Positions 1-38,185 of a stretch of DNA of 38,185 nt are shown here, one piece after another. The first letter of the stretch is position 1, and each line of letters begins with the position of its first letter. The stretch is taken from IMG/VR virus record IMGVR_UViG_3300044642_000116, positions 1-38,185 of that record, one strand, 5' to 3'. Under the pieces are notes generated by a model that had not been told where the DNA came from, made no database searches, and saw only the letters and a program-made list of their open reading frames with translations. The DNA comes from a virus. The translations under genes and the position numbers were made by a program.

Positions 1-68
1 GCTTTCTTGGCCGCTGCCTTTGGGTTGGCTGCGTAGTACTTAGCGGACTTGCTCTTTGCCTGGGCCAT
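1..68 (-). CDS. small basic protein, 3' end cut by window edge
   Basis: The reading frame opens with ATG at 68 and runs off the left edge, so only 22 residues are visible. They are rich in Lys and Ala (MAQAKSKSAKYYAANPKAAA). Small Lys/Ala-rich proteins with a similar start occur near the terminase genes of T7-like cyanophages, but their role is not known to me. The start overlaps the end of the upstream gene (stop at 40), the tight packing seen throughout this end. The large terminase should follow further left. Confidence 0.6.
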   Translation of the reverse strand, partial: MAQAKSKSAKYYAANPKAAAKK

Positions 69-243: not shown

Positions 244-460
244 GTTCCACGTCCTCAAGTTCTAAGTCAGGAAGGCTGGCAAATAGTTCAGCAAGAGGCG
301 AACCAGAAATGGGAACACCAGTGATGTTATTCTTGGCAAGCCAATCACAAGCCGCCTTAAGATCTTGAGTAGTAGCAAGGCCGCTTTCAATGCGACCAAT
401 CAGTTCCTTTGTAACGAGACCATGAAGCTCGTTGAACTGATCCTCAGTTGCTCTGGCCAT
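230..460 (-). CDS. small terminase subunit (T7 gp18-like)
   Basis: The 76-residue protein begins MARATEDQFNELHGLVTKEL and is mainly helical, with a helix-turn-helix-like stretch (TTQDLKAACDWLAKNNITG) in the middle. This layout and the size fit the DNA maturase small subunits of T7-like cyanophages, which bind the packaging site on concatemeric DNA and load the large terminase. T7 gp18 is slightly longer, about 89 residues. Its place after the lysis genes and before the expected large terminase matches T7 order. The start ATG at 460 lies two bases after the stop of the preceding 58-residue gene, which suggests coupled translation. Confidence 0.85.
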   Translation of the reverse strand: MARATEDQFNELHGLVTKELIGRIESGLATTQDLKAACDWLAKNNITGVPISGSPLAELFASLPDLELEDVERVIR

Positions 461-462
461 AA

Positions 463-639
463 TTACGGTTTATCCTCAACAAGAAGGCCTTCATAAATGG
501 GGTAATCAGAGGTGAGAACCACAACCGTTTTGACCCAGCCAATGCTGGTAAATGTCCAGGTAGCGCCATTAGCGGTAAAGGTTTGACCAATCGTAGGCGC
601 AGGGCTGGTCGGAAAGATTGGATAAACAGGGTGTGACAC
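463..639 (-). CDS. 58-aa protein, GTG start, possible carbohydrate-binding or tail-type module
   Basis: This gene is easy to miss because it is short and starts with GTG at 639. The endolysin stop and this start share one base (TAGTG), and an AAGGAG sequence lies about 8 bases upstream, so translation is plausible. The protein starts VSHPVYPIFPTSPAPTIGQT and continues with a NGATWTFTSIGW motif. Short Pro-x-x-GQTF...NG-x-TW-x-W modules of this kind occur in phage tail and cell-wall-related proteins, but I cannot assign a fold. Coupling to the endolysin suggests either a lysis accessory or a minor structural protein. Confidence 0.65.
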   Translation of the reverse strand: MSHPVYPIFPTSPAPTIGQTFTANGATWTFTSIGWVKTVVVLTSDYPIYEGLLVEDKP

Positions 640-1604
640 TATGTGTTCTCCTTAATAAGATTGATAAGCTTTTGCGGGTAGCTTGGATCTGTAGCATACC
701 CTTCTTGTTGAAGCAATCGACAGCATTCCTCAGCAGAAGTGGCACGATTGACACCCTCATACCCTTTGTAATCGTCGTACCAAAGGGAAATCAGGTGTTG
801 AATGCACTCTTCAGGGGTGTTATAGTCTTTAAAGGTGTCTTTAATGGTAACCCACTTGCCGTTAAGGAACTCTTTTGTTTCTGTTGTGGTACCAGGGCTA
901 CCTTTAATGCCAAAGAAATTGTTCTTTCCAGAGGTATGTTTACCATAACCGGACTCAAGGGCCCATTGAGCAGCAACAACCTCGGGAAACTTAACACCTT
1001 TTGCCTTGGCAACGGCCATGACACCCTTCCAAGAGTTATCAAAGGCTGATTTAGGCTTAACAGAACGGAAGGTCATGTACCATCCACTGCCACTGCCCTC
1101 CACCATCCACCGTTTTGACCAGTTTTTCCAGGTATAGGCCACATTTTTACCCCCAACACCTGGCTGTGGATAGCCTCCATTGGCGTTATCCATCTCACCA
1201 TAGGGGTCGTGGCAGATCACGTGGGTATCGGTAATGCCAATCACCAGAGCCCAGTGTCCACCCCCTTTTGGAGCGTAGGCTGGACCCTTATGAAGCACAC
1301 CGCAGGCAACAGGATAGCCTGCTTCAAGCTCCTTTTCAAGGGTTGTGCGGGTTCCATTCTTAAAGAAGGAAGCACGTACTCCATACTCAAGTGCTGCCCT
1401 TGTGTGGGAAGTGAATTGGGTGGTATCTCCGTACCTAAGAACAGTACGGAGGTAATCATCGTCTGCATTAGAACCCTTAAGGGCATCAGGAAGCAGATAT
1501 TTGATGGCCATCGCACATGTTGATGAAAAACACATGCGATCGCCGTGGGTGGTCTGGCTATCAAGCTGAGGGTAGTACTGCTTTACTGGCAGTAGGATGT
1601 TCAC
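639..1604 (-). CDS. endolysin: C39-like peptidase plus glucosaminidase
   Basis: A 321-residue protein with two lytic modules. Residues 1-165 resemble the C39_2 peptidase family: putative nucleophile Cys25 in MCFSSTCAM, His117 in GHWALVIG and Asp133 in HDPYG. Residues 185-321 resemble FlgJ-type N-acetylglucosaminidases, with the putative catalytic Glu217 in AQWALESGYGKH and the usual NNFFGIKG segment. No signal peptide is visible, so export depends on a holin. The start is GTG at 1604, overlapping the TGA of the upstream holin candidate (GTGA), with AAGGAG about 11 bases upstream. T7 uses an amidase (gp3.5) in its early region instead; here the lysin is a late gene next to the terminase. Which bonds are cut is inferred from the families. 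Confidence 0.85.
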   Translation of the reverse strand: MNILLPVKQYYPQLDSQTTHGDRMCFSSTCAMAIKYLLPDALKGSNADDDYLRTVLRYGDTTQFTSHTRAALEYGVRASFFKNGTRTTLEKELEAGYPVACGVLHKGPAYAPKGGGHWALVIGITDTHVICHDPYGEMDNANGGYPQPGVGGKNVAYTWKNWSKRWMVEGSGSGWYMTFRSVKPKSAFDNSWKGVMAVAKAKGVKFPEVVAAQWALESGYGKHTSGKNNFFGIKGSPGTTTETKEFLNGKWVTIKDTFKDYNTPEECIQHLISLWYDDYKGYEGVNRATSAEECCRLLQQEGYATDPSYPQKLINLIKENT

Positions 1605-1825
1605 AGCCGATCGATCTCCTTTTGGATTTCCTGAATTTTACCCTTAAGAGCGCGAATGGTATCGTCTTCCCTGCGAAAGATTTTTACCTGCTGAATGATA
1701 CCTTGAATTACTTGAACAATGTTGTTGCCCTTGATCGGAAGATAAGGAACAAGTTCGTCAAAGATAAACAGTACCAAAAAGGAAGCTGCCTCATAGGACA
1801 GTTTAATGCCAAAGAGAGTAATCAT
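1601..1825 (-). CDS. holin candidate, one hydrophobic segment plus coiled coil
   Basis: The 74-residue protein has a hydrophobic N-terminal half (residues about 12-28, AASFLVLFIFDELVPYL) and a charged helical C-terminal half (EDDTIRALKGKIQEIQKEIDRL) that looks like a coiled coil. It overlaps the endolysin start by four bases (GTGA), the usual arrangement of holin then endolysin. T7 holin gp17.5 is of similar size and also follows the tail fibre region. The membrane segment contains acidic residues and a proline, so it is not a typical transmembrane helix, and I cannot exclude a different membrane-associated role. Confidence 0.6.
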   Translation of the reverse strand: MITLFGIKLSYEAASFLVLFIFDELVPYLPIKGNNIVQVIQGIIQQVKIFRREDDTIRALKGKIQEIQKEIDRL

Positions 1826-1977
1826 TTCTTTGATTTACGATTGGAACGACGCTGCTCAGACATAGCAATGGCCGTAGCCTGAGCGCGAGAAGTTACCTTA
1901 GGACCCTTTTTGGATCCGCTGTGAAGGGTGCCTCGTTTGAATTCACCCATCACTTTCTTAACTTTGTTTGTTTTCAT
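1822..1977 (-). CDS. small basic protein, DUF6496-like
   Basis: The 51-residue protein starts MKTNKVKKVMGEFKRGTLHS and contains SGSKKGPKVTSRAQATAIAMSEQRR. The pattern VMxEFKRGTLxSGS...VxSRxQAxAIAxSE is that of the DUF6496 family of small basic bacterial and phage proteins, whose function is unknown. About a third of residues are Lys or Arg, so nucleic-acid binding is possible. The ATG at 1977 overlaps the previous stop (ATGA), and its own TGA overlaps the holin-candidate ATG in the same way, so it sits inside a translationally coupled string. Confidence 0.75.
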   Translation of the reverse strand: MKTNKVKKVMGEFKRGTLHSGSKKGPKVTSRAQATAIAMSEQRRSNRKSKK

Positions 1978-2105
1978 CGGCCTTGGCCGCGAGTTTGTTT
2001 CCTGCCATGGTTAGGAAGGGACCGTTTGCCCTGGCCCTGTCGAGAAAGTTTCGGAGGACCAGGAACATGGGTCACCTTATTCATGGCACCTTTTGGTTTA
2101 GCCAT
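1974..2105 (-). CDS. 43-aa basic protein of unknown function
   Basis: The protein begins MAKPKGAMNKVTHVPGPPKL and ends in a Gly/Gln/Arg-rich tail (HGRKQTRGQGR). It is strongly basic, has no membrane segment and is probably disordered. Similar MNKVTHVPGPPKLSRQGQG-type small proteins occur in cyanophages, to my recollection, without a known role. The stop overlaps the next start by four bases (ATGA). Its place between tail fibre genes and lysis genes suggests a late gene. A DNA-condensing or packaging role would fit the charge but is only a guess. Confidence 0.65.
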   Translation of the reverse strand: MAKPKGAMNKVTHVPGPPKLSRQGQGKRSLPNHGRKQTRGQGR

Positions 2106-2111
2106 AATAGG

Positions 2112-2351
2112 TTAAAGTCCGAACAGCTCTTTCAATTCCGCCACAGTCAGCCCAGCCGCTTCCAGCTTCTGCTCAGTGGTCAGGGCCACAGGAGGTTCAA
2201 CCACGGGGGCAGGCTCGGGCATGTTGCCAGCAGCGACCCACTCCAGATAGGCGGCGTAGTCGGTGTTGGCGGGGTCGGGTGGGATGAAGGCGTTGTCCGC
2301 GAGGCGGAGGATGGTGTCGCCGGTGGTGAGTTGGTACATGGCGTCAGTCAT
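2112..2351 (-). CDS. small tail-fibre-associated protein
   Basis: The 79-residue protein has the N-terminal pattern MYQLTTGDTILRLADNAFIPPDPAN followed by TDYAAYLEWVAAGNMPEPAP, a Pro-rich linker and a C-terminal helix. Such proteins are common next to tail fibre genes in phages of cyanobacteria and other bacteria and often act as fibre accessory or chaperone-like proteins, though this one is not characterised. Start may be ATG 2351 or the in-frame ATG 2339. It lies in a GC-rich stretch with its neighbours and ends the adhesin cassette. Confidence 0.7.
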   Translation of the reverse strand: MTDAMYQLTTGDTILRLADNAFIPPDPANTDYAAYLEWVAAGNMPEPAPVVEPPVALTTEQKLEAAGLTVAELKELFGL

Positions 2352-2364
2352 GGGTGGTTAGGGG

Positions 2365-3405
2365 TTAGAGCTCGGCGGAGGCAATGATTACTGCAGCGAC
2401 CGAAGCATTGCCAGTTCCTCCGCTAATTCTGCCTGCTTTCCAAGATTTAGTTGGTACTGCGCCAACCGCGACTTGATCAATTTGGGTAGCGCCTGAACCA
2501 ACGCTTAACGTGGGCGAGGCTCGTTTTTCTACAGCCCAAGACCCATACAACACATTGGCAACCCCTCCGGGAGTGTATGTGATGTATGTCTCTGCGCTTT
2601 GTGTCTCAAAATACCTCTGACACAACGCCAGCTCCTGCCCGTAGCTCCTGCGCTCAAACGGGGTGGCGACGGTGCCGGGTTCTAGTTGGACGCCGGTGAT
2701 GTAGAAGGTGGCGCCGTTGGTGCCGACGACACTGGTGGCGCCGGTGGCGGAATTGATAGTCCCCGTTGTCCAAGCCCCAGGAGTGCCTGAGCGGCTAGAG
2801 CCAACACCAAGGCCAAATTGGACAATCGCGCCTGTCGTGTTGTTGTTTGCCCATGTTCCAGATGTGTCTCCTGGAATTACAATAGTTTTTTGTTCCCAAG
2901 TATTTGCCGCCCCAATGCTGTAGACATAGGGATAAGCCCTGATTCCATTTGTAACAACACCTCCAAACGATCCTGTTAAGGAAGACCTCACCCAAAAAGA
3001 AAGCGTGACAACTTGAGCCGACGCCGTGCCCCAGCCCAGGTCGGATATATTAAAGCCTTCAATTGCCTGTGTGAGAATAAAGAAGTCTGTTGCAGTTAGT
3101 GAGTAGACGGAAAGCGATGTCAGGCCTAAATAACTGCTAAATCCTGAAGGCGGAGCTACTGAGCCAGCATTTTGCTGGACTGAAAGCTTAGATGCTTGAG
3201 AAATGGGAAGGCTCCATCTGTCCAGCGTGTAACTGGAAGATGTCGGCGTCACCGCCGCCCCATTGTTCCTGGCATCAATCCTCATGTCGCCATTGATGAT
3301 GCGGTTCCTGGCGCCAGAGATCGGGCCGCCGTTGATGGAGCTGAGGGTGGCTGCTGTGCCGGTGTTGGATGGGCCGGCGATGTTGGTTACGTTGAGTGTG
3401 CTCAT
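2365..3405 (-). CDS. receptor-binding/tail fibre protein, carbohydrate-binding-like
   Basis: The 346-residue protein shows the signature NRIINGDMRIDARNNGA near residue 35, a DRW motif after YTL, and FERRSYGQELALCQRYFE near residue 255. This set is typical of phage tail fibre or appendage proteins with a jelly-roll-like central part, and is widespread in marine and freshwater phages. The GATFYITGVQLEPGTVATPFE segment is the conserved end of the central domain. Host receptor binding is inferred. It is a separate gene rather than part of the T7-type fibre, so it must attach to the fibre or tail by another route. Base composition is richer in G+C at both ends than in the virion genes upstream. 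Confidence 0.8.
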   Translation of the reverse strand: MSTLNVTNIAGPSNTGTAATLSSINGGPISGARNRIINGDMRIDARNNGAAVTPTSSSYTLDRWSLPISQASKLSVQQNAGSVAPPSGFSSYLGLTSLSVYSLTATDFFILTQAIEGFNISDLGWGTASAQVVTLSFWVRSSLTGSFGGVVTNGIRAYPYVYSIGAANTWEQKTIVIPGDTSGTWANNNTTGAIVQFGLGVGSSRSGTPGAWTTGTINSATGATSVVGTNGATFYITGVQLEPGTVATPFERRSYGQELALCQRYFETQSAETYITYTPGGVANVLYGSWAVEKRASPTLSVGSGATQIDQVAVGAVPTKSWKAGRISGGTGNASVAAVIIASAEL

Positions 3406-3407
3406 GA

Positions 3408-4025
3408 TCAGCCCTCGTAGAGAATGTTGATCGACCCGGCGTCAAAGGTGTCGGTGCCGTTGACGGTGGTGATGCGGACGCGATCTAGGGTGCCGGAGAG
3501 GGTTTTAGAGCCTGAAGCGTTGCAAACGCGAGGAACTGCAGGGGCTACAAAACCGCCATCAAACGCCCACGTATTGCCCGTAAGTAGCTGGATTCTTGCA
3601 GCTCCAGAGGTAACGGAAGCGGCAGTCAGGCCAACACTTGCAATAAACCCATCCGTCGCCGTCCCTTGGTTTGTTGCTTGGATGACGCCAGATGTGTAGC
3701 CAGTGTTTTCGATGCCGCCAGAATCGCCCAGTTGAATTAAATAATTGCTGGTTCCACTGAGACTTACTTGGTCAAACATCACCGTCACCCGCTTCACCCA
3801 ACTTGGAATCCCGGTGAAGTCGATGCTGGTGCCGCTGGTGGTGTTCTGAGCGGTGGCGAGCACCATGCGGCCGTTGACCCAGCTCAGGTTGCCAGCGCCA
3901 TCAGTGCCGAGGATGTTGCCGGCTGATCCGTTGCCACTGGGCAGCACCAGCGTGTTGTTCGCCCCTACGGCGGGGCTGTCGATCTCGGTGTAGCCGGAGG
4001 TCTGGCCTGCGAGTCTGAGTGTCAT
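3408..4025 (-). CDS. tail fibre/adhesin module
   Basis: The 205-residue protein begins MTLRLAGQTSGYTEIDSPAV and contains the fibre-type repeat LVLPSGNGSAGNILGTDGAGNLSWV (in two pieces: LVLPSGNGSAGN and ILGTDGAGNLSWV), seen in many tail fibre stalks. The rest is rich in Ser, Thr, Gly and beta-strand-forming residues, ending DTFDAGSINILYEG. No enzymatic motif is visible. It is likely one component of the modular receptor-binding tip. The start overlaps the previous gene's stop by four bases. A 60-base sample at 3801-3860 contains 37 G or C, much more than the internal virion genes. Confidence 0.7.
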   Translation of the reverse strand: MTLRLAGQTSGYTEIDSPAVGANNTLVLPSGNGSAGNILGTDGAGNLSWVNGRMVLATAQNTTSGTSIDFTGIPSWVKRVTVMFDQVSLSGTSNYLIQLGDSGGIENTGYTSGVIQATNQGTATDGFIASVGLTAASVTSGAARIQLLTGNTWAFDGGFVAPAVPRVCNASGSKTLSGTLDRVRITTVNGTDTFDAGSINILYEG

Positions 4026-4444
4026 TGGTTCACCTCCAGGGCGGTCTTGATTTCATCAGGGGTAGACGCGCCTTCAATCACGTCTTGGATCAGGGCGTAC
4101 TTCTCGCGGATGGCCTGACGAGCCTCCTCCGCTGCGGTGGCGTCTGCACCAGGGATCTGTTTCATGATCACCTCGTCAAAGGGCTTGAACTCCTCGGCAC
4201 GTTGTTGACGGCGCTTGTCGTGGCCCAGGGCCTTGCACTTGTCTAGGTCGTGGTCGATGCAGCAGTCACCCATCACCCACGCATTGCGGAAGTAGCGGTC
4301 GGTGGGGATGTCAGCTTCATCAACGATCTCGTAGGTCACGCCCTCGGGGACATCCTTCAGGGCTAGTTCGACGGTCACTGCGGGGATGATCACCGCGACG
4401 CCGCCATCAGGGGTTGGGTAGATGATTCGTTTCATGGTGGTCAT
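4022..4444 (-). CDS. fibre-associated conserved hypothetical protein
   Basis: The 140-residue protein starts MTTMKRIIYPTPDGGVAVII and carries the motif EIVDEADIPTDRYFRNAW. Proteins with this start and motif are frequent among tail fibre genes of cyanobacterial and other phages and in prophages, so an assembly or accessory role is likely but not shown. Residues 60-80 hold a His/Cys/Asp/Lys-rich stretch and the C-terminal half is helical (EEARQAIREKYALIQDVIEG). Either ATG 4444 or ATG 4435 could be used; the latter matches the family start as I remember it. It is flanked by two fibre-type genes. Confidence 0.65.
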   Translation of the reverse strand: MTTMKRIIYPTPDGGVAVIIPAVTVELALKDVPEGVTYEIVDEADIPTDRYFRNAWVMGDCCIDHDLDKCKALGHDKRRQQRAEEFKPFDEVIMKQIPGADATAAEEARQAIREKYALIQDVIEGASTPDEIKTALEVNQ

Positions 4445-4450
4445 TGTGGG

Positions 4451-4897
4451 TTAGCGAAAGATGGAGACACACACCTGCGTAACATCACCTCCAACAACAC
4501 CATTGCTGTAGATGTTTCTTACTCTCAGGCTGGAGCTAAGAATGGTTACAGCGGTAATGACACTGTTAAAGGAGCTACTGGGTCCGTCGCTGGGGGCGGT
4601 ATCCTTGCCAAAGGTGAAACCGTAGTTGGCGTCGGCCAACGCTGTTGTGAAGTTGACCGTATAATCACTTACCCCGTTATCCGTAATGCTGCTCACGTTG
4701 TAGCTGGCACGGATCGCCACGGTGCCGGTGCCGTTGAAGTTCACGAAGGCTTTACAGACACCGGTGGCCGTATCAGCGTCGAGCTTGCTGCGACTCACAG
4801 CATCCGCTGCCAGGTCGGGATTGGTGATCACTCCATCAGGAAGACCACCTGCACTAATTCCGGTTACGGTGCCGGATCCGTTAATAGTAATAGGCAT
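4451..4897 (-). CDS. tail fibre/adhesin module
   Basis: Read from ATG at 4897 the protein has 148 residues and starts MPITINGSGTVTGISAGGLP. The reading frame is open upstream to a TTG at 4915, but the MPITINGSGTVTG start is a familiar phage fibre N-terminus. The following DGVITNPDLAADAVSRSKLD is a fibre-stalk motif and the remainder (FVNFNGTGTVAIRASYNVSSI) a beta-rich tip seen in many phage tail proteins. It begins three bases from the stop of the T7-type fibre gene. Probable receptor-binding component. Confidence 0.75.
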   Translation of the reverse strand: MPITINGSGTVTGISAGGLPDGVITNPDLAADAVSRSKLDADTATGVCKAFVNFNGTGTVAIRASYNVSSITDNGVSDYTVNFTTALADANYGFTFGKDTAPSDGPSSSFNSVITAVTILSSSLRVRNIYSNGVVGGDVTQVCVSIFR

Positions 4898-4899
4898 AA

Positions 4900-6219
4900 T
4901 TAGACAATGCTCCAAGCAGAACCAGAAGGTACAGTTACTGTGACACCTGAGTTAATAGTCATAGGACCAGCAGAGATAACATTCTTGCCAGCAGTAATTG
5001 TGTACGATTGAGTAACAGTGTTCGAGTGCTCTACTGCCCACTCATCGCTTCCACCACCAGTGGCTCCACCTCCAACACTTCCCCAGGCAGAGCCGTTATA
5101 GCCCTCAAACTTACCAAGAGAATTATTAAAGCGGAAGTAACCAGCAGCAGGGGTGCCATCTCGTTCGCCAGTAGTGCCACTAGGAATACCAGCAGAGCCA
5201 GTATTACCTGTTTTATAAACACTTTCGCTGATAACCTCTTGAAGAGCCCCTTGAACATTATTAGAGGCAACTGTTCCAAAAGGGGTAAAGCTGATGTTTG
5301 CAGCATCACCGGGAACATAAGCAATGACCCAAACCGTGCCGGTATAGACCTTCATCACCGACAACGTGGTGTTCCAATAAAGGTCACCAGCAGTCAGAGG
5401 ATCTCCGTCATTATCAACACTAGGGTCGCTTGCCTTAGCACCAAGGTAGCGGTCATCAAAGCTGTCAAATGCAGCCAAGGCAGACGCAGCAGAACTGGCA
5501 GCACTGGTGGCACTGTTGGCAGCGTTAGTGGCGCTGGTAGAAGCGTTAGATGCACTGGTAGCTGCGTTAGACGCAGACGTACTAGCAGCAGCCTGAGAGG
5601 CGCTAGCAGCGGTCTGAGAAGCAAGAGCAGCAGAAGCACTACTGGCCGCATTACTGGCGCTTGTAGAGGCATTGCTGGCGCTCGTGGCTGCATTAGAGGC
5701 AGACGTTGCAGCAGCACCAGCGGAAGTCGAAGCAGAAGAAGCCGAAGCAGCTGCAGCTATAGCAGAAGCTGAAACTGCACCAACATTACTATCTACATAG
5801 TCTTTCGTGGAAGCATCTGTACCAGCAGAGGGGGTTCCAAGGTTGGTAATTTTATACCCACCCATATTAAGGATGCCCGACAGGGTACCCCCAAAGGTGC
5901 TAAAAGCTCGGGCAACTACTTCTTGAGCAACATAAAGCAGCTGGGTAAAGTTTTCATTCAGGTCTTGTGCCTTAATGGACGAGCCTGAAAAGAAAGTAGC
6001 TTCAGAAGTATCGCTATTGGTTTCGCGATAAATAATGATAGCTGCACCAGCGGCTGGAGCCGATAGAAACTGAATGGTGCTGGCGTTGACAAATACAAAG
6101 GCAGTGGTAGGTACCGCATTAACGGTAACCTTTACATCTGCCTCGTCTAGGTAAAGAAAAGACAGGGAATAGAGCGTAGTAGACCCATTCCCCGTATAAG
6201 TGTTTTGGACAATTGCCAT
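4900..6219 (-). CDS. tail fibre with T7 gp17-type N-terminal anchor
   Basis: The 439-residue protein begins MAIVQNTYTGNGSTTLYSLS; residues 1-145 match the T7 tail fibre N-terminal domain (PF03906), which docks the fibre on the tail. Residues 150-250 are an Ala/Ser/Thr/Asn heptad repeat, likely a coiled-coil shaft. Residues 255-310 contain the DRYLGAKASDPSVDNDGDPL...GDLYWNT module found in many fibres, and the C-terminus ends in a GPMTINSGVTVTVPSGSAW motif common in marine phage tails. The stop of the upstream ejection protein overlaps the start (TAATG). T7 gp17 is longer (about 553 residues); the distal receptor function may reside in the genes that follow. Confidence 0.9.
   Translation of the reverse strand: MAIVQNTYTGNGSTTLYSLSFLYLDEADVKVTVNAVPTTAFVFVNASTIQFLSAPAAGAAIIIYRETNSDTSEATFFSGSSIKAQDLNENFTQLLYVAQEVVARAFSTFGGTLSGILNMGGYKITNLGTPSAGTDASTKDYVDSNVGAVSASAIAAAASASSASTSAGAAATSASNAATSASNASTSASNAASSASAALASQTAASASQAAASTSASNAATSASNASTSATNAANSATSAASSAASALAAFDSFDDRYLGAKASDPSVDNDGDPLTAGDLYWNTTLSVMKVYTGTVWVIAYVPGDAANISFTPFGTVASNNVQGALQEVISESVYKTGNTGSAGIPSGTTGERDGTPAAGYFRFNNSLGKFEGYNGSAWGSVGGGATGGGSDEWAVEHSNTVTQSYTITAGKNVISAGPMTINSGVTVTVPSGSAWSIV
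5470..5772 (-). repeat. Ala/Ser heptad-coding repeats in tail fibre shaft
   Basis: About fourteen consecutive 21-base units encode heptads such as SNAATSA, SNASTSA, SNAASSA, TNAANSA and TSAASSA. The pair SNAATSA-SNASTSA occurs twice, separated by degenerate units. The pattern places Ala at regular positions, as expected for a thin trimeric coiled coil. The repeat also creates long open frames on the opposite strand without coding meaning. Such repeats can change length by recombination or slippage. Confidence 0.8.
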
Positions 6220-9200
6220 TAGAATTCAGCCAATTGTTTGAGATCTTCTTTGATTGTTGACTTAGTAAAGTCACCCCTTAGGGCCTTGATGTTAGTTTCC
6301 CTCTTTTCCATGACAAGCGCACGGTAGGACGGATCCTCATCATAAAGAACGTTAAGGGCCTGTGTCTTGTATTTACTAATGATACCACTGATCTGTTTGA
6401 TGTGTGGAGGTGTATTATCCTCGTTGGCACCAACAATCATTTCAGCAGTAATTGGCCGATTCTTGTAGGCCTTGGCCATGTTCTGCCATTCCTTACGTCC
6501 AATAACCTGCTCCAATTTCTTGGGCAGTCCACTCTGGAAGAGCAGCTGGCTCAGACGTTCCCGATGTTCTGGAGCAAGACGAACTCCATTCTTACCGGTC
6601 TTGATGATGTCATTGGATGGGTAACCAATCTCTGATAGCGTCTTAACGAGCTTATTGTTTTCCACATCATAAATGCGGATAGGACTCAAAGCGTTATAGA
6701 GGCCACCAGCATTGGAGTGAAGTTTCTTACCAGTGATCCAAGAGGTAACGCTAGGAAGATCTTTACCGTAGCCAGGAGCTGCTGCAATAAGCATACGATC
6801 AAGTTCGTTCCTTGTTTCCTTCATATATGGATCAAGGGAATTAGCAAATGCTCGACGAACACCCGCATAGGGAACCATGGTATTAGCAGAGTTCAGCAGG
6901 AAGTTCAACGCACTAGGATCTTGAAGAGTCTTAGGGTTGATCAATTCACCAAGCGTACCCAAACCAGACAGGAAACTCTTATCGGTATAGCCTGCCATGA
7001 TTGAATATGCAAGCTGTCGCATGACCTGACCAGCAGCATCAGCACCGCCAATCTTCACAAGCCTAACTGCATCTGCCACAATAGACAGCATGGAGTTGAC
7101 TGGTTCAAATGACGCATACGATACCCACTTGTTTCCAACGCGGATCGACATTGCAGGACGACCCTCTTCACGCCAAGCCTTACGTTCGTTAGGATCAAAC
7201 GGAAGGTTACCGGTAATGTCAGTTTGAGTGGCCATCGTAAGAAGTGCCCCTACAAGGAATGCACCTGTGGCTTCACGGCCCTTAAGTTCTTCAACAAGCA
7301 GATAGTCTCCGCTCTTCTCAGCAGCTTCTAGGGTTCGGCGGAAGTTGCTCATCTGACGATTGATCAGCGGCACATGTTCCAGACCATACCCAAGCAGGTT
7401 AGCAGGTGTGCGAACAAAGGGAATAAACAGCTTTCCAAACGGAGCTTGATCTACAGCGTTAGCCACTGCATTCATAAAGCTGCCTGGATCCTGTTGGAAT
7501 GCCACACGTTCTGCATAATCAAGCAGATCCTTATCAAGGATACGACCAGACTGAGGATCGATGCCCTTAGAATACTCATCAATGTACTTCTTGAACAGGA
7601 AATCCACATCACCCTTTTCGGCAGCATGGATCTGAGCCAGGTACATCGAATGACTATTCATCCGATAACGAGCAGCCAGGGTTTTGAAGAAGTCATCAGC
7701 ACCAAGCAGTGCTCGACTGGGCCAACTGAACCAGGGGTTATTGAGCATGGTATAGCTCTTTTCAAGCATCCCAGCTGCAATCTTTTCCGAATCAGTACGA
7801 GCAGCCATGTTAAGCTGCTCAAGAATGGCCTTGGTTTCAAAATCCTCTACAACAAATTTAGCGTTGTAGTTGACAGAATCACCAGTCTTCAAGGTAGTAG
7901 CAGCCACTTCCCATGCGTCCTGGATGCCCTTATACATGCTGTGGAGGCCAGCAGTAGCAGAGTTACGCAGGACAGGATCGTTTTTAATAACACCCCGCAG
8001 ATAGGTAGAGAAGGGTCGTTCCAGAATGGCATAGCTGTTGCCAAACATGTTCCGAAGGTGGGTAATAGGACCCGACAGCATCGATTGATACATGTTGGTC
8101 ATGGCCTGTTTGAAGCCAATACCACGAGCAGCATCCCAGAATCGAACAGTCTTGGACGGATCACCACCGGCCAATACCATTGCTCGAATCAAAGCATCCA
8201 TCTCTCCAGCAGCATTTGGATCGGAGCTGCGTTGAAGTTTCTTTACCTTAAGTGCCCACTCCTTGACTTCACCCATACTAAGGGCAGCCTTGGCCTCGGC
8301 ACCAGCTTCATCAGCAACAGACCCAACGTTTTGCTTGAAGATATTCAAACCACTACCATAACGATAGGCGGTTTGCTTATGGAGATCCAGCAGGAACACC
8401 AGACGATCTACCACCCGATCAAAGCTATTGCCGTCAAATTCACCTGCTTCACGCAGGGCAGCGGCATTGGTAGCCAGATCATTGATTTGAAGAGCAGTGT
8501 CACGTACCAGAGCCTTGGTAACCAGCACACCCTTCTTGGAGAGGTAACGACCGGATACGGAATCAGGGTCAATAACCTCGGCTTCCTTCATCATCTGGTA
8601 GATGGTTTGGTTGTCCAGAGGTTCACCAAGAGCATTACGGAAGTCTTCCAGCTCCTGAGCAGCACTCTTAACAATACCATCAACCGAGGTCATGGCTGCC
8701 TTGGCTGCTTCTTGAAGATCCATCCGGCTAGAAAGCTTCCGAATGACATCCTCTGCTCCACCTTTGATGTTGGAGATACGGAATTGAGCATCTGTCATCA
8801 TCCGTACGGATCCACCAATATTCATCGGGGCAGAACGTACTGCCTTTGGAATAGTAGGATCACCACTGGGGGCCTTGGTGTTGTTAAGGCTTCGGTGTTG
8901 CTGACCGATTGCATCCTCAACAGGACCAGTCTTAATGGTAGCTGCTGCATCCTGAGGAAGGAGTTCCTTAGCATCGTCTGGATCATAGCCTCTTGCGATA
9001 GCTTCGTCCAGTTCTGCCATGCTCACACGCACGTCTCCAAGGGTCTCCTGAAGGGCCCTGAACTTAGGATCGGTCTCATCTACCCCTGCCTCCTTAAAGG
9101 CGGCTTCCTGGTCCAGGTAGCGACGTTCCAGGTCCAGCAGTTGATTCATTTCCTCCTGGTGTACCTCACCCCATCGCATCGACTCCACTTCCACAGCCTT

Positions 9201-10202
9201 GACGTTATCCGCGTCCATCTGCTTCATGGCCTGTTCAGAAGCCTTGAGGCCATCAGCCATAGCTTCGGATTCAGACTTGCCAGCCTTCAATGCAGCCTGA
9301 GCAGCCTTACGACCAAACAGCAGCCATCCAGCACCATCAATGACAGCACCAAATGCACCACCTTCTAGGACACCCTTGATCTTTGCTTGGAAGATGTCAT
9401 CATCCTTTTCTGCTGCTAGGGCAAACAGAACCGAATCATGAAGGGGGTGGTTCTCGGGGACAAGGTTCCGGACCATGGTAGAAAAGTTACCATCTTCCGG
9501 CTTGGTGAGCATGAAGTCTGCCACAGCTCCAGGTACCAGACCAGAAGCCACAGCACCTTTGATTCCCTTTCCCTTTGTTCCCAACTGAATGAGAGCCTTG
9601 GGTGCCTTGGTTGCAACTGCTCTGGTTAGGACAACCAGCTCTGCCAGCTTAAGGGCAGCCTGACCAATCTCTGTTTTAGGCTTCTGAGTGCCAAAGGAGT
9701 AGGCAGCAGAGGTGTAACGATCATTCCAAGGATCCTCGGTGGCCTTGATTTTATTACCAACAACCTTGTTGAGACCTACCTTAACGGCATCACCAACAAC
9801 ATCAAAGGTATCGAGGGTAGCTTCAACAGCGCCAACACCAGCATTCATGACAACCCGTGAGGTCTCAGCCAGAACACCAGTATCTTTGTTGATAGCTGTT
9901 TCAGCTTTGGTCCGGATTTTCTTGGTTTCTTGCTTGGTTTGCTTGTATTGCTTTTGAAGATCGGTACCTAGAATAGTATCAAGCGCACCAGTAATCGGTT
10001 CTCCAAGATCTGTACTCAGTGCTTGTTGAATAGGTTTCAGAGGATTGACCGTTTTGGGTCCCGTTTCTCCTTGTGCCTTTTGCCGCTGTTGCGTTTGTTT
10101 CTTCTTTTGTTCCTCTTCTTCTAGTTGTTGTTGCTTGTATTCAGGGTTGTGGTAATAATCATCAACAGGCCCAAGGCCGACAGGACCATTAAGTTGAGGC
10201 AT
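6219..10202 (-). CDS. internal virion/ejection protein (T7 gp16 position)
   Basis: The 1327-residue protein begins MPQLNGPVGLGPVDDYYHNP and then has a very Gln/Glu/Lys-rich stretch (residues 23-45). The central part (about 700-1050) carries motifs typical of cyanopodovirus gp16 proteins, such as NMYQSMLSGPITHLRNMFGN and WVSYASFEPVNSM. Several hydrophobic and amphipathic helices are present, as expected of a protein that leaves the capsid to build a channel for DNA entry. T7 gp16 has an N-terminal transglycosylase; none is visible here, and that activity has moved to the neighbouring protein. It directly precedes the tail fibre gene, as in T7. Confidence 0.85.
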   Translation of the reverse strand: MPQLNGPVGLGPVDDYYHNPEYKQQQLEEEEQKKKQTQQRQKAQGETGPKTVNPLKPIQQALSTDLGEPITGALDTILGTDLQKQYKQTKQETKKIRTKAETAINKDTGVLAETSRVVMNAGVGAVEATLDTFDVVGDAVKVGLNKVVGNKIKATEDPWNDRYTSAAYSFGTQKPKTEIGQAALKLAELVVLTRAVATKAPKALIQLGTKGKGIKGAVASGLVPGAVADFMLTKPEDGNFSTMVRNLVPENHPLHDSVLFALAAEKDDDIFQAKIKGVLEGGAFGAVIDGAGWLLFGRKAAQAALKAGKSESEAMADGLKASEQAMKQMDADNVKAVEVESMRWGEVHQEEMNQLLDLERRYLDQEAAFKEAGVDETDPKFRALQETLGDVRVSMAELDEAIARGYDPDDAKELLPQDAAATIKTGPVEDAIGQQHRSLNNTKAPSGDPTIPKAVRSAPMNIGGSVRMMTDAQFRISNIKGGAEDVIRKLSSRMDLQEAAKAAMTSVDGIVKSAAQELEDFRNALGEPLDNQTIYQMMKEAEVIDPDSVSGRYLSKKGVLVTKALVRDTALQINDLATNAAALREAGEFDGNSFDRVVDRLVFLLDLHKQTAYRYGSGLNIFKQNVGSVADEAGAEAKAALSMGEVKEWALKVKKLQRSSDPNAAGEMDALIRAMVLAGGDPSKTVRFWDAARGIGFKQAMTNMYQSMLSGPITHLRNMFGNSYAILERPFSTYLRGVIKNDPVLRNSATAGLHSMYKGIQDAWEVAATTLKTGDSVNYNAKFVVEDFETKAILEQLNMAARTDSEKIAAGMLEKSYTMLNNPWFSWPSRALLGADDFFKTLAARYRMNSHSMYLAQIHAAEKGDVDFLFKKYIDEYSKGIDPQSGRILDKDLLDYAERVAFQQDPGSFMNAVANAVDQAPFGKLFIPFVRTPANLLGYGLEHVPLINRQMSNFRRTLEAAEKSGDYLLVEELKGREATGAFLVGALLTMATQTDITGNLPFDPNERKAWREEGRPAMSIRVGNKWVSYASFEPVNSMLSIVADAVRLVKIGGADAAGQVMRQLAYSIMAGYTDKSFLSGLGTLGELINPKTLQDPSALNFLLNSANTMVPYAGVRRAFANSLDPYMKETRNELDRMLIAAAPGYGKDLPSVTSWITGKKLHSNAGGLYNALSPIRIYDVENNKLVKTLSEIGYPSNDIIKTGKNGVRLAPEHRERLSQLLFQSGLPKKLEQVIGRKEWQNMAKAYKNRPITAEMIVGANEDNTPPHIKQISGIISKYKTQALNVLYDEDPSYRALVMEKRETNIKALRGDFTKSTIKEDLKQLAEF

Positions 10203-10237
10203 TTCTAATAAGGATTGCCCGCAGGCTAAAGGTTATC

Positions 10238-10270
10238 AAAGAAAAGTGGGGAACCAGCGCACCAGTTCCC
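10238..10270 (-). terminator. terminator-like hairpin between the two ejection protein genes
   Basis: On the minus strand GGGAAC (270-265) pairs with GTTCCC (254-249, all plus 10000), extendable by wobble pairs, and is followed by CACTTTTCTTT. It lies in an 82-base gap between the 1029- and 1327-residue protein genes, one of the few gaps in the late region. A partial intrinsic terminator or an RNA-processing hairpin are both possible. Confidence 0.5.
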
Positions 10271-10284
10271 ATTAACTATGTATC

Positions 10285-13200
10285 TTATCGGAATGTTCCA
10301 GCTTCGATTTGCTGTTTAATTCGTGCTGCCAATCGCTGCCAATTACGATATGGAGTCATGGCATTACTACCAGCAGGGGCTGGAGCAAGGAAATCAATGC
10401 TTGCAATAGTTCCGTCTACTGATCTGACCCGTCCAGAACCGCCTTGTTTACCAAGAACAACTCCAGGACGAACCCTTTCACCTTCCCGTACATTAATACT
10501 ATCAAGGTGTGCATAGAGCACATCCACAGTATCTCCAGTTGCTGGATCGGTAGATTCTACGACAATCATATTGCCATAGTTCCCATTGTTACGTCGGATC
10601 TCTTTGACCCTGCCTGGGAGAACAGCACCGAACTGTTTATCAGCAAACCAAAGATCCATGCCGGGTTGGAAAGAATTGCCTGGCGTTTCAATACGGATGG
10701 ACTGAACATTAGTGGGTGAGAAGTTTGCCCGCCCACCTCGGGCCGAATTAAAACCCGATCGTTGCATCTCCGCAAATGCCCTACGTGCTTCCCCCATGTA
10801 TTGAAGGTAGCGTTTATCACGATAGGCACCCCAAGCGTTCTTACCGCCTGATTTCAAGATGCTAGACATAACCCTGGCGTTGGTTTCTGGATCCTTAAGA
10901 TCATCTGCGCTACGAAGGCCGTAGTTACGAAGACGTTGAGGTCCAAGATCACCAATCATATTAATTTGCCACAATCCGTAGGAATCATCTCCTGTGTTTG
11001 GGTTCAAATTACGAACACCAGACTTACCAGTAGACTCTGCCATACCAATTGCAGCCATGATTACTGCTTCTTCTCCGCCAAGACCTTGATCCATAGCGAG
11101 ACGAATGTAATCATTAATGCCTACAACCGCACCGGGTTTCAGATCAGTAGTAGGCTCTGTCCCTTTCCCAGACACTTCCACGCGTCTCCGGGCTCGTTGT
11201 TGAGCTTCAACAATTCTTCGCAGCTGAAGTAGTTGCTGTTGGGGATTGTTTCCGGAAGTGGCATACCGCTCGGCGGCACGAGGAGCGACAGCGCTGTATT
11301 CAGCCAGACGCCTTGCTTCAGGAGTGGATAGGATAGGGCTTGGATCAATACCATAATGTTGTGCTTGATGGGTCAGCAGACGAACCGCGCCTCCATTACC
11401 ATCTGCCAAAGCCTGGGCTTTAGCGGTCAATGGTTGGTTTGATTGAAGACGTTGAATGTTGTCTTCTACCTCACCTTTGGACATCATTTTTGTAGCACCT
11501 GAAGTATAACTGCGCAGTTTAATGGTGCGTGGATCGAATCCAGAGGCATCACGAACGCGGCCAGCAACAGCACTTGTGCTATAGTTTCCAATGATGTTGG
11601 GGTTTCTGCTCAGAGGCTTTGGAGTCCATCCTTTGGTGGTTGGATCCTGCCTAAAGTACTTGCTTACCTGACTGGGTATCTTAGAAAGAACGAATTGGTT
11701 AATGTCATTATCATCAACTTGCTTGTTGTTTGCAAGCCAGTAGTTGTAAGCAAGGAGTGTCAAATCATTGGAGATCTGACGAACATGAAGAGGATGCTTA
11801 TCTGGATTACCAAAAGGATCCAGGGAAAGAGCACCAGCTGCTTCAAGGTGAGCCTTAACGGCTTTGTCGATGTCTTCACCGAATTGTTTGTTAAAGCCAC
11901 CACGAGAGTCAGCTTCAGCAAAGTTCTTCAGCTCATTATACATCTGTTCCGTCAGTTTACCATTCTGGAAATCAGCTTCAAGCTGACGCTCAGATGGACG
12001 CATTCCCTGAGAAATGCCTTGACGGTATTGTTGATAGAGAGTGTAATCAACGTTAGTAGGTTCAGCAAGAAGCTGCCCTCGCATTTGGAGAGCCTTTTCA
12101 CTGCCTTGATCTGCCAGGGTACCAAGAATGCTAATTGTTTCCTGACGAAGATTCTTTAATTGATCCGCAGGTAGATTAACATCTTGACGAGCCCTTTCCA
12201 GGATATTCATTGCCTTGTCCGCATTACGGTCAAGTTCTCTATCCTGACGCGCAGCAGCCTGATCGGCCTTTGTACGTACAGACTCTAAGGTCTTATCAAA
12301 GCTGTCTGCGTATGCTGCTCCAAGTGTGATGCTGTTAGGATCGTCTGCAATCTTTCGTACTTGAGAAAGTTTGTCAAGAAGATCTTCAGCAATATCTTGG
12401 GGCATAGTGGAGATAGCATTGAGCGCACCTTCCATGGCACGATCAGCAGCAGCACCACGACTCAGACCGCCTTTAACTTGGTAATCAGTTACCGAGCGTT
12501 GATAGGATTCAAACAGCCCATCAACGGTTTGATCTGGATTGCTGAACTCACCTTGAACCTCACCATCCGTATCAGATACAGCTGTTTCTCGATTCTTACG
12601 AGATACCTCTTGAATCTTATTAGCAAAGACCTGGCTACGAATGTTTTGAAGGGTTGGAGCCAGATGCTCGGCCAGGATGACAGGGTTGATGTTGGTAACA
12701 CCAGATGCCTTAACAAACGAAGCCTGGGCAACCTCAAGGACAGCGTTGATTTCTGCTGGTGTGGAGGCTTGTGAAGGAGCAATGAACCGTCCATCAGGAA
12801 GTGGAATGGTCTGTTCGGTCTGCTCCATGAAGGCCAGCATAGCAGCCTGTGAATTGTTGGCGGCTCTTTTTGCCAATCCAACTGCTTGTCCATAGGCTCG
12901 CCATCCAGAAATGGAACGGCTTTCTGCCTTGAACTGTTCTGCTACTTCAACCTGACCTTGTTGTGTGAGGTTGTTGATTACCTGCCCATCAGACTCAGCA
13001 GCCTTTTGAAGCATTCCAACTTCTTGCTGATACTTATCTTTAAAAGCAGGGTTCAGTTCAACCGTACCATTAAGAACATCAGCAACACCAAGGTTGTATT
13101 CATTCTCGGCCTGGGCTTTGGTACGTTCCTTCAGATTGGTAAACAGAGTTTCACTGAAGCTGGTAAGGGCTTCAATTTCATTCTGTTTGATCTGATTTTG

Positions 13201-13374
13201 AAAGTTTAACGCCCGGTTGGTTTGCTCAAGGGCTTGAGTCTGTACAGCAGCCTGGCGTTCGATTTTATTTGATAGGGCCTGACTTGGATCATAGGCCTGC
13301 TGTGGAGCAAAGGATGTGCCTTGCTGAGGACCCCTCAGAGCAACCTGAGGACCACGGGGTTCATAGACTGCCAT
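10285..13374 (-). CDS. internal virion protein (T7 gp15 position) with SLT and degenerate M23 domains
   Basis: The 1029-residue protein begins MAVYEPRGPQVALRGPQQGT. Residues 50-720 are mostly helical and Gln/Ala-rich, fitting a core or ejection protein. Residues about 745-840 form a soluble lytic transglycosylase domain, with the putative catalytic Glu near 779 (AIGMAESTGKSGVRN) and the DDSYGLWQINMIGDLG motif. Residues about 895-1000 resemble an M23 peptidase (YGNMIVVES, YAHLDSINV..GERVRPG, LGKQGGSG), but the zinc motifs HxxxD and HxH are not intact. The protein probably opens peptidoglycan during entry. In T7 the transglycosylase is at the N-terminus of gp16 instead. Confidence 0.87.
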   Translation of the reverse strand: MAVYEPRGPQVALRGPQQGTSFAPQQAYDPSQALSNKIERQAAVQTQALEQTNRALNFQNQIKQNEIEALTSFSETLFTNLKERTKAQAENEYNLGVADVLNGTVELNPAFKDKYQQEVGMLQKAAESDGQVINNLTQQGQVEVAEQFKAESRSISGWRAYGQAVGLAKRAANNSQAAMLAFMEQTEQTIPLPDGRFIAPSQASTPAEINAVLEVAQASFVKASGVTNINPVILAEHLAPTLQNIRSQVFANKIQEVSRKNRETAVSDTDGEVQGEFSNPDQTVDGLFESYQRSVTDYQVKGGLSRGAAADRAMEGALNAISTMPQDIAEDLLDKLSQVRKIADDPNSITLGAAYADSFDKTLESVRTKADQAAARQDRELDRNADKAMNILERARQDVNLPADQLKNLRQETISILGTLADQGSEKALQMRGQLLAEPTNVDYTLYQQYRQGISQGMRPSERQLEADFQNGKLTEQMYNELKNFAEADSRGGFNKQFGEDIDKAVKAHLEAAGALSLDPFGNPDKHPLHVRQISNDLTLLAYNYWLANNKQVDDNDINQFVLSKIPSQVSKYFRQDPTTKGWTPKPLSRNPNIIGNYSTSAVAGRVRDASGFDPRTIKLRSYTSGATKMMSKGEVEDNIQRLQSNQPLTAKAQALADGNGGAVRLLTHQAQHYGIDPSPILSTPEARRLAEYSAVAPRAAERYATSGNNPQQQLLQLRRIVEAQQRARRRVEVSGKGTEPTTDLKPGAVVGINDYIRLAMDQGLGGEEAVIMAAIGMAESTGKSGVRNLNPNTGDDSYGLWQINMIGDLGPQRLRNYGLRSADDLKDPETNARVMSSILKSGGKNAWGAYRDKRYLQYMGEARRAFAEMQRSGFNSARGGRANFSPTNVQSIRIETPGNSFQPGMDLWFADKQFGAVLPGRVKEIRRNNGNYGNMIVVESTDPATGDTVDVLYAHLDSINVREGERVRPGVVLGKQGGSGRVRSVDGTIASIDFLAPAPAGSNAMTPYRNWQRLAARIKQQIEAGTFR

Positions 13375-36838: not shown

Positions 36839-36878
36839 AAAAAAAGAACCGAGATCTCAAGGAATGTTGAGACCCCGG
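36839..36878 (-). terminator. strong intrinsic terminator
   Basis: On the minus strand a 12-base-pair stem (36878-36867 with 36860-36849) closes around a six-base loop; ten pairs are Watson-Crick and two are G-T wobbles in the CCGGGGTCTCAA / TTGAGATCTCGG arms. It is followed directly by TTCTTTTTTTG (36848-36838). On the plus strand the wobbles become A-C mismatches and no T run follows, so the signal works in the minus direction. It ends the three-gene unit at 36914-38185 and isolates the early cluster. Confidence 0.8.
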
Positions 36879-36913
36879 TACAATTGCCCGGTGATTCGGT
36901 TGTGTGAGGCGCG

Positions 36914-37393
36914 TTAGATCTTAGCTAGCTTTTGTTGTGGAAATGTGCCGGTGGTAAGGGTAACTGCCGCTTGGCCTGCTACCTCACTCCATAACAGCCA
37001 GTGAATCTCCTTAGGAGCTGTCAAGACGTGGGCAATGGTAACGGCAAGTTCACCATCCCAATCGGCCCCAGCATTCTCCTGCCAATGCACCCAATCATGC
37101 ACAGCCCTAAACATAAGATTCTGCTGCTCTGACATAAGGTCAGGGTTTGGATCATTGTTGAGGCGAGAAACTGGAAGCCACCGGGTCTCACCAGGCAGAA
37201 CGGGTCGGCTGAGCGCCGCCATGGCATCCTCAATTGACACATCACGTGTCACAAACAGAGGCTCAATGCCCGTGGCTCGCATCCGGTGGAACTGCCGCAT
37301 CAACCAAGCCCCAAACGCTTTACGTTCGGCTGTGGTTGGTGTTGTATGTGGTGCTTCAGACCAGGCCCTGGCGATGCTAGTTGCGGTGATCAT
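36914..37393 (-). CDS. phage protein of unknown function with conserved HDW/E/H motif
   Basis: The 159-residue protein has an N-terminal helical part and a conserved-looking segment LMFRAVHDWVHWQENAGADWDGELAVTIAHVL (in parts FRAVHDWVHW, GELA, IAH), followed by a WLLWSEVAGQAA stretch. Phage proteins of actinobacteria carry a similar FRxVHDxxGHxxxxxxFxxxGE...H...TExRGQ pattern, from memory, without a known activity; the His, Asp and Glu could bind metal. It overlaps the previous gene by 17 bases and is followed by the strong terminator. Confidence 0.65.
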   Translation of the reverse strand: MITATSIARAWSEAPHTTPTTAERKAFGAWLMRQFHRMRATGIEPLFVTRDVSIEDAMAALSRPVLPGETRWLPVSRLNNDPNPDLMSEQQNLMFRAVHDWVHWQENAGADWDGELAVTIAHVLTAPKEIHWLLWSEVAGQAAVTLTTGTFPQQKLAKI

Positions 37394-37565
37394 TGGTCAA
37401 GGACTCCAATGGGATTAGGTCAATCAATTGCTCGCCCCGATTAATTAGCCTCAGGGCCTTTGTAACTGCCGCATCGTAGTTGGAAGCGGTGATTAGGTGT
37501 TGGCTTGTGATTCTTTGCCCACCACGTGGTAGGTTATATCCAAGCCAACAAGAATAGGTGATCAT
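37377..37565 (-). CDS. 62-aa hypothetical protein
   Basis: From ATG 37565, overlapping the upstream stop by four bases (ATGA), the protein starts MITYSCWLGYNLPRGGQRIT and continues SQHLITASNYDAAVTKALRLI. Part may form a small alpha/beta domain. It links the two larger genes of this unit. No family recognised. Confidence 0.6.
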   Translation of the reverse strand: MITYSCWLGYNLPRGGQRITSQHLITASNYDAAVTKALRLINRGEQLIDLIPLESLTNDHRN

Positions 37566-38185
37566 AGCCCGATCAATCGGCGATAGGTAACCCACGTAAC
37601 AGCTTGAACCTCAGCAGGGGTCAGACCATAACCACAGGCATCAAACGACCGCTCAGAAGCCAGGATATAAGAGCGGGTGATGGCGGCATATAGAGCCTTG
37701 CCGATGTTCGGGGTTTTAGTTGTGGGGATGCGTTCACCCATAAAGATGGCAAAGGCGTGGCCATCAACGCAAACAGTATCCTTAAAGCCTGAGATACAAC
37801 GATAAAAGGCAACTACCTTTTGACCGGATAGAATATCTTGAATAGCCTCACTGTCTGGTGATTCTAGTTCAAGAATGCGGGCGGCCTTGTCTTTGTTGGT
37901 GTTGTAGGTGCAAACCTTTGCCTGTCTTGAATCCTCACCGACATGCCATAGCTTAATCATGCTCTCAGCATCGGCACAGTTCCTCTCCCACTTGTTGTTT
38001 GGGCTAAGGGCTGCGATCACACCGATGGCTTGACCCAGCGTGAGGCCGTCATAGGTATGGATAAGGCTGACAGAAAGATCGTAGGCCCGTTGATACCAAT
38101 CCTTCCCTTGTTGAATGTCGGCAGCAGAGGCAAGCCCTAGCATCCCGATGATGTGGCGAGCATTTGCGCGTGGTTGTACCCGTTT
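37562..38185 (-). CDS. DUF7178-like phage protein, 5' end cut by window edge
   Basis: The frame stays open through the right edge, reading KRVQPRANARHIIGMLGLAS before the first internal ATG at 38143, so that ATG is probably not the start. The GLTLGQAIGVIAALSPNNKWERN, KVVAFYRCISGFKDTVCVDGHAFAIFMGE and YGLTPAEVQAVTWVTYRRL segments match a phage family often labelled DUF7178, common in actinophages and some cyanophages. The VDGHA motif and the ALSPxxxWERN motif are its hallmarks. Its fold recalls helical DNA-glycosylase-like proteins, but no activity is established. Confidence 0.75.
   Translation of the reverse strand, partial: KRVQPRANARHIIGMLGLASAADIQQGKDWYQRAYDLSVSLIHTYDGLTLGQAIGVIAALSPNNKWERNCADAESMIKLWHVGEDSRQAKVCTYNTNKDKAARILELESPDSEAIQDILSGQKVVAFYRCISGFKDTVCVDGHAFAIFMGERIPTTKTPNIGKALYAAITRSYILASERSFDACGYGLTPAEVQAVTWVTYRRLIGL

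Follow-up and report, generated by a model that had tools for sequence, protein, structure and literature searches.

A three-gene unit in a T7-like phage pairs a predicted HhH-GPD protein with a putative small metal-binding hydrolase: a possible early base-excision pair

The IMG/VR record IMGVR_UViG_3300044642_000116 is a linear fragment of 38,185 bp from a T7-like phage, and this entire stretch is referred to here as the window. Its minus strand encodes RNA polymerase, SSB, primase/helicase, DNA polymerase, exonuclease, ribonucleotide reductase and head-tail genes, and a nucleotide pyrophosphohydrolase is also encoded. At the high-numbered end lie three overlapping minus-strand open reading frames, which the original prediction had treated as a single unit, and this arrangement has been confirmed. 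The first (37562..38185) specifies a DUF7178 protein (PF23802/phrog_3842) that is open at the window edge, with 207 residues visible. The second (37377..37565) encodes a protein of 62 residues, and its ATG at 37565 shares the sequence ATGA with the DUF7178 stop. The third (36914..37393) starts inside the 3' end of the 62-residue gene, with an overlap of 17 nt, and encodes a protein of 159 residues, here called HDW, from an HDx2-3H phage domain superfamily (phrog_3170/phrog_7806). The closest relative of the DUF7178 protein (locus L002) begins MTKRVQ, whereas the window protein begins KRVQ; thus, two codons of the gene are missing, or only one by comparison with L005-type relatives, which begin MKRV. 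Position 38185 is an assembly break rather than a genome end. Upstream of DUF7178 in L002 lie a T7-like terminase gene, ThyX and small open reading frames. A DNA-level search for the region in the phage collection gave no match.

Downstream of the HDW gene, the same strand carries a terminator-like hairpin (36848..36879). Its stem, read from 36879 to 36848, has 13 pairs, including two G-U pairs, and is followed by TC and then seven T. The terminator that had been predicted, with a stem of 12 bp, is present in slightly different form. None of 200 shuffled sequences folded as well (z -3.1). Across the 5-kb region, terminator-like sites number 4, against 4.7 expected from shuffles, and so are not in excess. 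A hairpin with a T-rich tail was found 3' of HDW in all 16 of the window-clade loci tested, a count made without a shuffle control; the stem bases differ in most of the 16, and the hairpins of L007 and L012 are the same. In L105, where the gene order is reversed and the sequence 3' of DUF7178 was tested, no hairpin with a T-rich tail was seen. Promoter-like sites are likewise not in excess over shuffles, and the sole one upstream of the unit in its direction is a 9/12 match located 0.6 kb before DUF7178 in L043.

The assignment of the first gene to its family is secure, with a match to PF23802 at E 1.1e-41 (143.4 bits against a gathering cut-off of 27) and to phrog_3842 at E 9.7e-56. A tblastn search with one query found DUF7178 in 126 of 50,697 phage records, with a best identity of 44% among the matches listed. 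At least 85 of the 126 records are Mycobacterium, Gordonia, Streptomyces or Microbacterium phages, and to this extent the family is, as had been supposed, best known from actinophages. However, the closest named relatives of the window protein are from cyanophages, several of them T7-like, and roseophages, and relatives of HDW occur also in phages of Pseudomonas (27 records) and of Caulobacter (6). Cellular relatives of DUF7178 look rare within the reach of a scan for matches to two peptide patterns, which retained a single contig belonging to a metagenome-assembled genome; among plasmids, a search yielded two from Streptomyces. The name "glycosylase" is already attached to DUF7178 proteins in several actinophage records, and "N-glycosylase/DNA lyase" is used in Synechococcus phage S-CRES3. 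No HDW gene was found beside DUF7178 in the stretches examined of S-CRES3, PhinkBoden, DroogsArmy, Francesca and Cece. SprT-like protease genes lie three genes from DUF7178 in Microbacterium phage Cece (L126:1676-2137) and six genes from it in Mycobacterium phage DroogsArmy (L130:3350-3820).

Structural modeling has pointed to a known fold for this protein. The AF2 model, built from 34 aligned sequences, has a pLDDT of 93, and its best match among solved structures by VIA-align is the Ogg2 glycosylase SsOgg (3fhg; Z 11.2, 171 residues, rmsd 3.7), followed by MjOgg 3knt (Z 11.1), TmOgg 3n0u (Z 10.9) and MjOgg 3fhf (Z 9.7), with OGG1 chains at a Z of about 8. The best of these, a Z of about 11, falls below the value of 13 that is advised for helical bundles, Foldseek alone gives a weak match (E 0.13), and a fold does not by itself define a function. 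Conservation bears on the active site. In a diverse alignment, K123 and D141 are each present in 50/50 sequences, a Gly two positions before K123 is present in 49/50, and the invariant positions among the columns counted are K123, F127, D141, Y31, S61, P62, W66, N69, Q194 and W198. The window protein has 17 residues between K123 and D141, i.e., a distance of 18, which is also the K-to-D distance of EcNth and archaeal Ogg2; the matching of K123 and D141 to known catalytic residues is by this spacing rather than by a residue-level structural alignment. Sequence searches are negative: Pfam yields no glycosylase or other HhH-fold family at E<=1 (the only other match is DUF5673, at 0.19), a sequence-profile search of the window finds no match to PF22175, and the matches of the DUF7178 profile to PDB sequences at E<=1 include no glycosylase and are at chance level only. 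The predicted fold, a Lys in the hairpin as in bifunctional glycosylase/lyases, and the Asp following the hairpin are all present, and it is very probable that DUF7178 has the HhH-GPD fold and active site, with Lys123 and Asp141 as candidate catalytic residues. An earlier guess at a repair-like, glycosylase function fits this protein. The structure comparison proposed with that guess gave the Ogg2 matches for DUF7178; for HDW, no solved structure exceeds a Z of 3.6.

HDW belongs to a phage domain superfamily with no convincing counterpart in Pfam. The window protein matches phrog_3170 weakly (E 1.5e-5), and phrog_7806 matches HDW relatives. A Pfam scan of 17 members found no family better than E 0.079 and no LPD model, and a PDB sequence search with the HDW profile returned chance-level matches only. 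An R..HD core is present in 146 of 151 HDW loci and is absent from the matched part of the other five. Among 95 distinct cores, which were selected by R..HD, the motif is HDxxH in 35 and HDxxxH in 60, and a Glu follows the first His by 13-20 residues in all 95. The fully conserved columns in 16 aligned proteins are N, R, H, D, H and E, and the window protein has both the superfamily core, N..FR..HDx2-3H...E, and the common predicted fold. Its model (pLDDT 92, 18 sequences) runs in the order helix, strands, HDxxH helix, Glu helix. Comparison with solved structures gave 14 weak entries, of which selecase and abylysin are best (Z 3.6) and a DPC protease entry reaches 2.6. Viral models in BFVD, in contrast, were matched by Foldseek at E 1e-6 to 7e-3; these include a 433-residue protein of Mycobacterium phage Spud as well as proteins of Scott, Percy and LKA1, and the matches agree with the 16-protein sequence alignment. 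A protein of Pseudanabaena phage, Pam2_175 (L111:3914-4423), annotated as a transposase, is an HDW protein; it matches phrog_3170 (E 1.4e-5) and the HDW profile, of which it is itself a member.

Two known classes were considered for HDW, and it was placed in neither. A zincin-like metallopeptidase (HExxH/HExxxH) would fit the helix order, yet the structural match is a Z of 3.6 at best, Asp replaces the general-base Glu in 95/95 cores, and comparison with two SprT-like phage proteins gives an hhalign probability of about 0.1%, i.e., no profile similarity. Because the defining Glu is absent and there is no supporting sequence or structure match, HDW is not classed as a zincin. HD-domain phosphohydrolases use the ligand set H...HD...D, and the 16 aligned HDW proteins have no conserved His before the HD.

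It had been predicted that the two larger families form a shared module, and the neighborhood survey has borne this out, since they occur together elsewhere, adjacent in both orders or fused. In a scan seeded with HDW, DUF7178 adjoins it in 23 of 23 loci, 19 of the window clade and 4 distant (L105, L106, L107 and L108). The distant loci, which are 33-43% identical to the window protein, have the order HDW then DUF7178, while the order DUF7178 then HDW is seen in the window clade and in gp110-gp111 of Bixzunavirus. In Mycobacterium phage FrayBell, gp110 (DUF7178, 1.8e-10), the fifth gene past the major capsid gene, overlaps gp111 (HDW) by 8 nt. Gordonia phage Yvonnetastic (NC_031230) has an unannotated HDW open reading frame (L117:837-1340) directly upstream of its DUF7178 gene 203. 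In Rhodococcus phage E3, both domains reside in gp205, a single protein of 858 residues annotated as structural, and fused HDW/DUF7178 proteins are also present in IMG/VR (for example, L146, L148, L150, L203 and L207). No usable paper was found on virion proteomics behind the "structural protein" label of E3 gp205 or behind Bixzunavirus virion proteins.

A broader sample was seeded with the HDW domain of E3, from which 80 of 372 loci found were kept, E3 included and several of them near-identical. By profile search, DUF7178 is fused in 11 and adjacent in 7 of these (18/80). Four carriers were dropped: L194, which lies below the Pfam cut-off; L191 and L199, which have no match; and L195, because its profile match is identical to that of L194. 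This leaves 14/80 with a supported DUF7178, fused or adjacent, of which eight exceed the Pfam cut-off (L146, L150, L207, L148, L159, L203, L217 and E3, L113) and six were kept on the profile search alone (L147, L151, L210, L211, L212 and L218). A regular expression for the K...D pair finds it in L151 and finds none in L159, L207, L217, L218, L191, L194 and L199. The rough background of 126/50,697 refers to another collection, to DUF7178 anywhere in a record, and to one tblastn query.

The two genes are also found apart. In the DNA examined, DUF7178 was not found in 62 of the 80 E3-seeded loci (66 without the four weak matches), in 8 of 9 Yvonnetastic-seeded loci or in 1 of 4 L106-seeded loci, and HDW is without it in phi15, Percy, LKA1, BB8, Scott, DoCa2, P59 and Pam2. 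Six of seven DoCa2-type phages lack it in the stretch examined, and the seventh, Yvonnetastic, has it. Conversely, HDW lies beside DUF7178 in 19 of 80 DUF7178-seeded loci, many of which are on contigs that end just past DUF7178. Thus, because each is often found without the other, the link is recurrent, not obligatory. In the literature searched, which included few subscription papers, no description of the pairing was found, HDW having no searchable published name, and the term "DUF7178" did not occur. Relatives of the 62-residue protein lie 3' of DUF7178 even where HDW was not found (L052, L048, L024, L027, L042, L066 and L067); consequently, this small protein may belong with DUF7178 rather than with HDW.

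HDW is also a component of large proteins, whose open reading frames extend over as many as about 2,800 residues and continue past the contig end. It is accompanied by ART-PolyVal and LPD38 in L205 and L216, by a zeta toxin in L156, and by HipA/PI3K-like matches below the Pfam cut-off in L169. DUF7178, in turn, is present in at least two copies, together with InPase and a 2H phosphoesterase, in Rctr197k_173, a protein of 2,039 residues from Virus Rctr197k (L134:3512-9628). Several unrelated domains thus share one polypeptide in L156, L205, L216 and Rctr197k_173, which are of the polyvalent type as described in PMC5512222; the small genes of the window have at most one recognized domain each.

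The position of the genes bears on when they might act. In hand-copied rows, DUF7178 falls within the first tenth of the record, in its own direction, in 29 of 42 cases, and the corresponding count for HDW is 27 of 37. No probability is claimed for these counts, as the rows are related to one another, the starting point of some records is arbitrary, and a single row stands for 31 mycobacteriophage (Bixzunavirus-type) rows with a mid-genome HDW. DUF7178 is gene 3 of Lentibacter phage ICBM2, 1.2 kb from a left end with an annotated terminal repeat; in linear records it lies 0.7 kb in for P12053L (gene 2) and 1.3 kb in for A-4L, and in DroogsArmy it is at the right end and transcribed leftward. 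The original prediction placed the unit at the very entry end of the genome. Although the edge of the window is merely where the assembly stops, the location of DUF7178 in ICBM2, P12053L and A-4L, 0.7-1.3 kb from an end, gives the idea support in relatives. Solo HDW genes are gp2 of phi15, which follows predicted sigma-70 promoters and precedes RNA polymerase, BB8 gp3, Percy gp6 and LKA1 gp7, and P59 gp22 is inside an annotated left-end repeat region (1-13303 of the record). Contig ends also cluster at DUF7178. In 56 loci, 9 of the 29 contig ends that lie 3' of the gene and within 5 kb fall 66-227 nt past its stop; a 42.7-kb contig (L013) is cut 36 nt before the gene; and ends near it are seen at the window edge, 38185, and in L003, L004, L007, L013, L014, L018, L025, L028, L037, L039 and L051. 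Such clustering may indicate that the genome ends here or that the region is variable.

The two domains recur as neighbors or as fusions in widely different phages, which suggests joint early action, and these observations have led to a model in which DUF7178 and HDW form an early two-enzyme base-excision pair. As a whole, we give this model a probability of about 0.45. DUF7178 would be a small DNA glycosylase of the HhH-GPD type whose active site is of the lyase kind. It would flip out an altered base; the hairpin lysine would then attack the sugar with the assistance of the aspartate, and the strand would be opened. The glycosylase step is proposed because of the predicted fold and the invariant residues, and the lyase step because of the lysine. 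HDW, because of its metal-like residues, would be a small metal-binding hydrolase, with His-Asp...His on one helix and Glu on the next. Because the genes are adjacent or fused, it might share the pathway of DUF7178, acting for instance on the product of the glycosylase or on a protein bound there, and a common pathway seems reasonably likely. The position of the genes suggests that the first operon would supply the pair as infection begins, and fused forms in large structural or polyvalent-type proteins may travel in the virion; we consider early action of the pair likely. The pair would protect or clear DNA ahead of replication, a role that we put forward tentatively, at somewhat less than an even chance. 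The least certain point is the target, which could be the DNA of the incoming phage, that of the host, or DNA that a host defense has marked.

Other explanations can be offered for the same observations. Rather than repairing DNA, DUF7178 might perform another N-glycosidic or base chemistry of the HhH fold, as an N-glycosylase acting on nucleotides or an enzyme of base hypermodification, for example of the alpha-GPT-pyrophosphorylase kind, and work alongside the nucleotide genes and thymidylate synthase of the phage. The model does align with DUF2419, a queuosine salvage enzyme, over 194-195 residues (Z 7.0-7.2). A search of six window-clade contigs found ThyX in every one: in five it precedes DUF7178 by 1.1-1.7 kb, and in the sixth it sits at the opposite end of the contig. 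In SIO1 and P12053L it follows DUF7178 by 0.9 kb, and ribonucleotide reductase and the pyrophosphohydrolase are among the window's own products. However, Ogg2 outscores DUF2419 (Z 11 versus 7), the Lys/Asp pair typical of glycosylase/lyases is invariant, Pfam at E<=1 offers no other HhH-fold family, and no base-modification kinase was found among ten other window proteins scanned. Such a chemistry is considered unlikely.

An attack on the host, in which the glycosylase/lyase would nick host DNA, or HDW would cut a host factor, to bring about shut-off while phage DNA is spared, seems similarly improbable. It would suit the position of both genes near the genome start, including that of HDW in the left-end repeat region of P59 and among the first genes of phi15, BB8 and Percy, and also the giant proteins in which HDW accompanies ART-PolyVal, a zeta toxin or, in one case, the sub-threshold HipA/PI3K-like matches, as host targets would be expected for such domains. 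Nevertheless, an OCR-like antirestriction neighbor is equally consistent with the protection of DNA. Finally, the two genes may be functionally unrelated and have become neighbors through a pool of small early genes and multidomain phage proteins. Phage early regions swap small genes freely, and in the loci examined, each family is commoner without the other. Position alone would hardly explain both gene orders and several fusions, though, and 14/80 is far above the rough background, even if the loci are related; we regard an unrelated pair as quite improbable.

The proposed base-excision model offers a testable function for two widespread families of unknown role in Pfam and PHROGs (PF23802/phrog_3842; phrog_3170 and phrog_7806) and links the two by their fusion and their adjacency in either order. 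The pairing also ties early-end genes of small T7-like phages to domains of large structural or polyvalent-type proteins, and so an easily handled small pair could reveal the role of the large proteins. A bolder version, for which we see only a slim chance, would have the pair as a transferable base-excision and metallo-hydrolase cassette, first expressed or carried as virion cargo in unrelated phages, which undoes the marking or cross-linking of incoming DNA by the host: the glycosylase/lyase would remove the marked base, and HDW whatever is attached. Were this true, it would represent a counter-defense against base-targeting immunity not yet described; if the pair reverses a modification that the host places on incoming DNA, an unknown base-directed defense would be indicated.

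Among known systems, the closest to DUF7178 is Ogg2 (SsOgg, MjOgg and TmOgg), whose fold is matched over 171-180 of the 207 residues at Z 9.7-11.2, with Lys and then Asp at the hairpin. In contrast to this likeness, identity is about 10% with no sequence-profile match, and DUF7178 has (nearly) invariant motifs of its own, WY, SPxxxWxxN and QAxTW. The annotated DUF7178/phrog_3842 phages have the same family as the window protein, often near a genome end, whereas in the window clade it is part of a distinct three-gene unit that ends in a terminator. For HDW, the phrog_3170/phrog_7806 proteins (FrayBell gp111, phi15 gp2 and LKA1 gp7) share the core and the predicted fold, although the phrog_3170 members FrayBell gp111 and E3 gp205 are longer than the window protein. 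The remaining comparison is with polyvalent proteins (Iyer et al. 2017, PMC5512222). HDW and DUF7178 are likewise found in phage proteins of giant size, some of which include ART-PolyVal, LPD38 or InPase. The polyvalent set contains 40 uncharacterized LPD domains, of which HDW could be one, and the word "glycosylase" is absent from the main text. Its metallopeptidases vary between HEXXH and HEXXXH, and HDW resembles these zincin-like enzymes in the order of its helices and in a motif spacing of two or three residues. The domains of the window differ in being separate small genes, while the early-delivery idea advanced for polyvalent proteins fits the HDW and DUF7178 giants.
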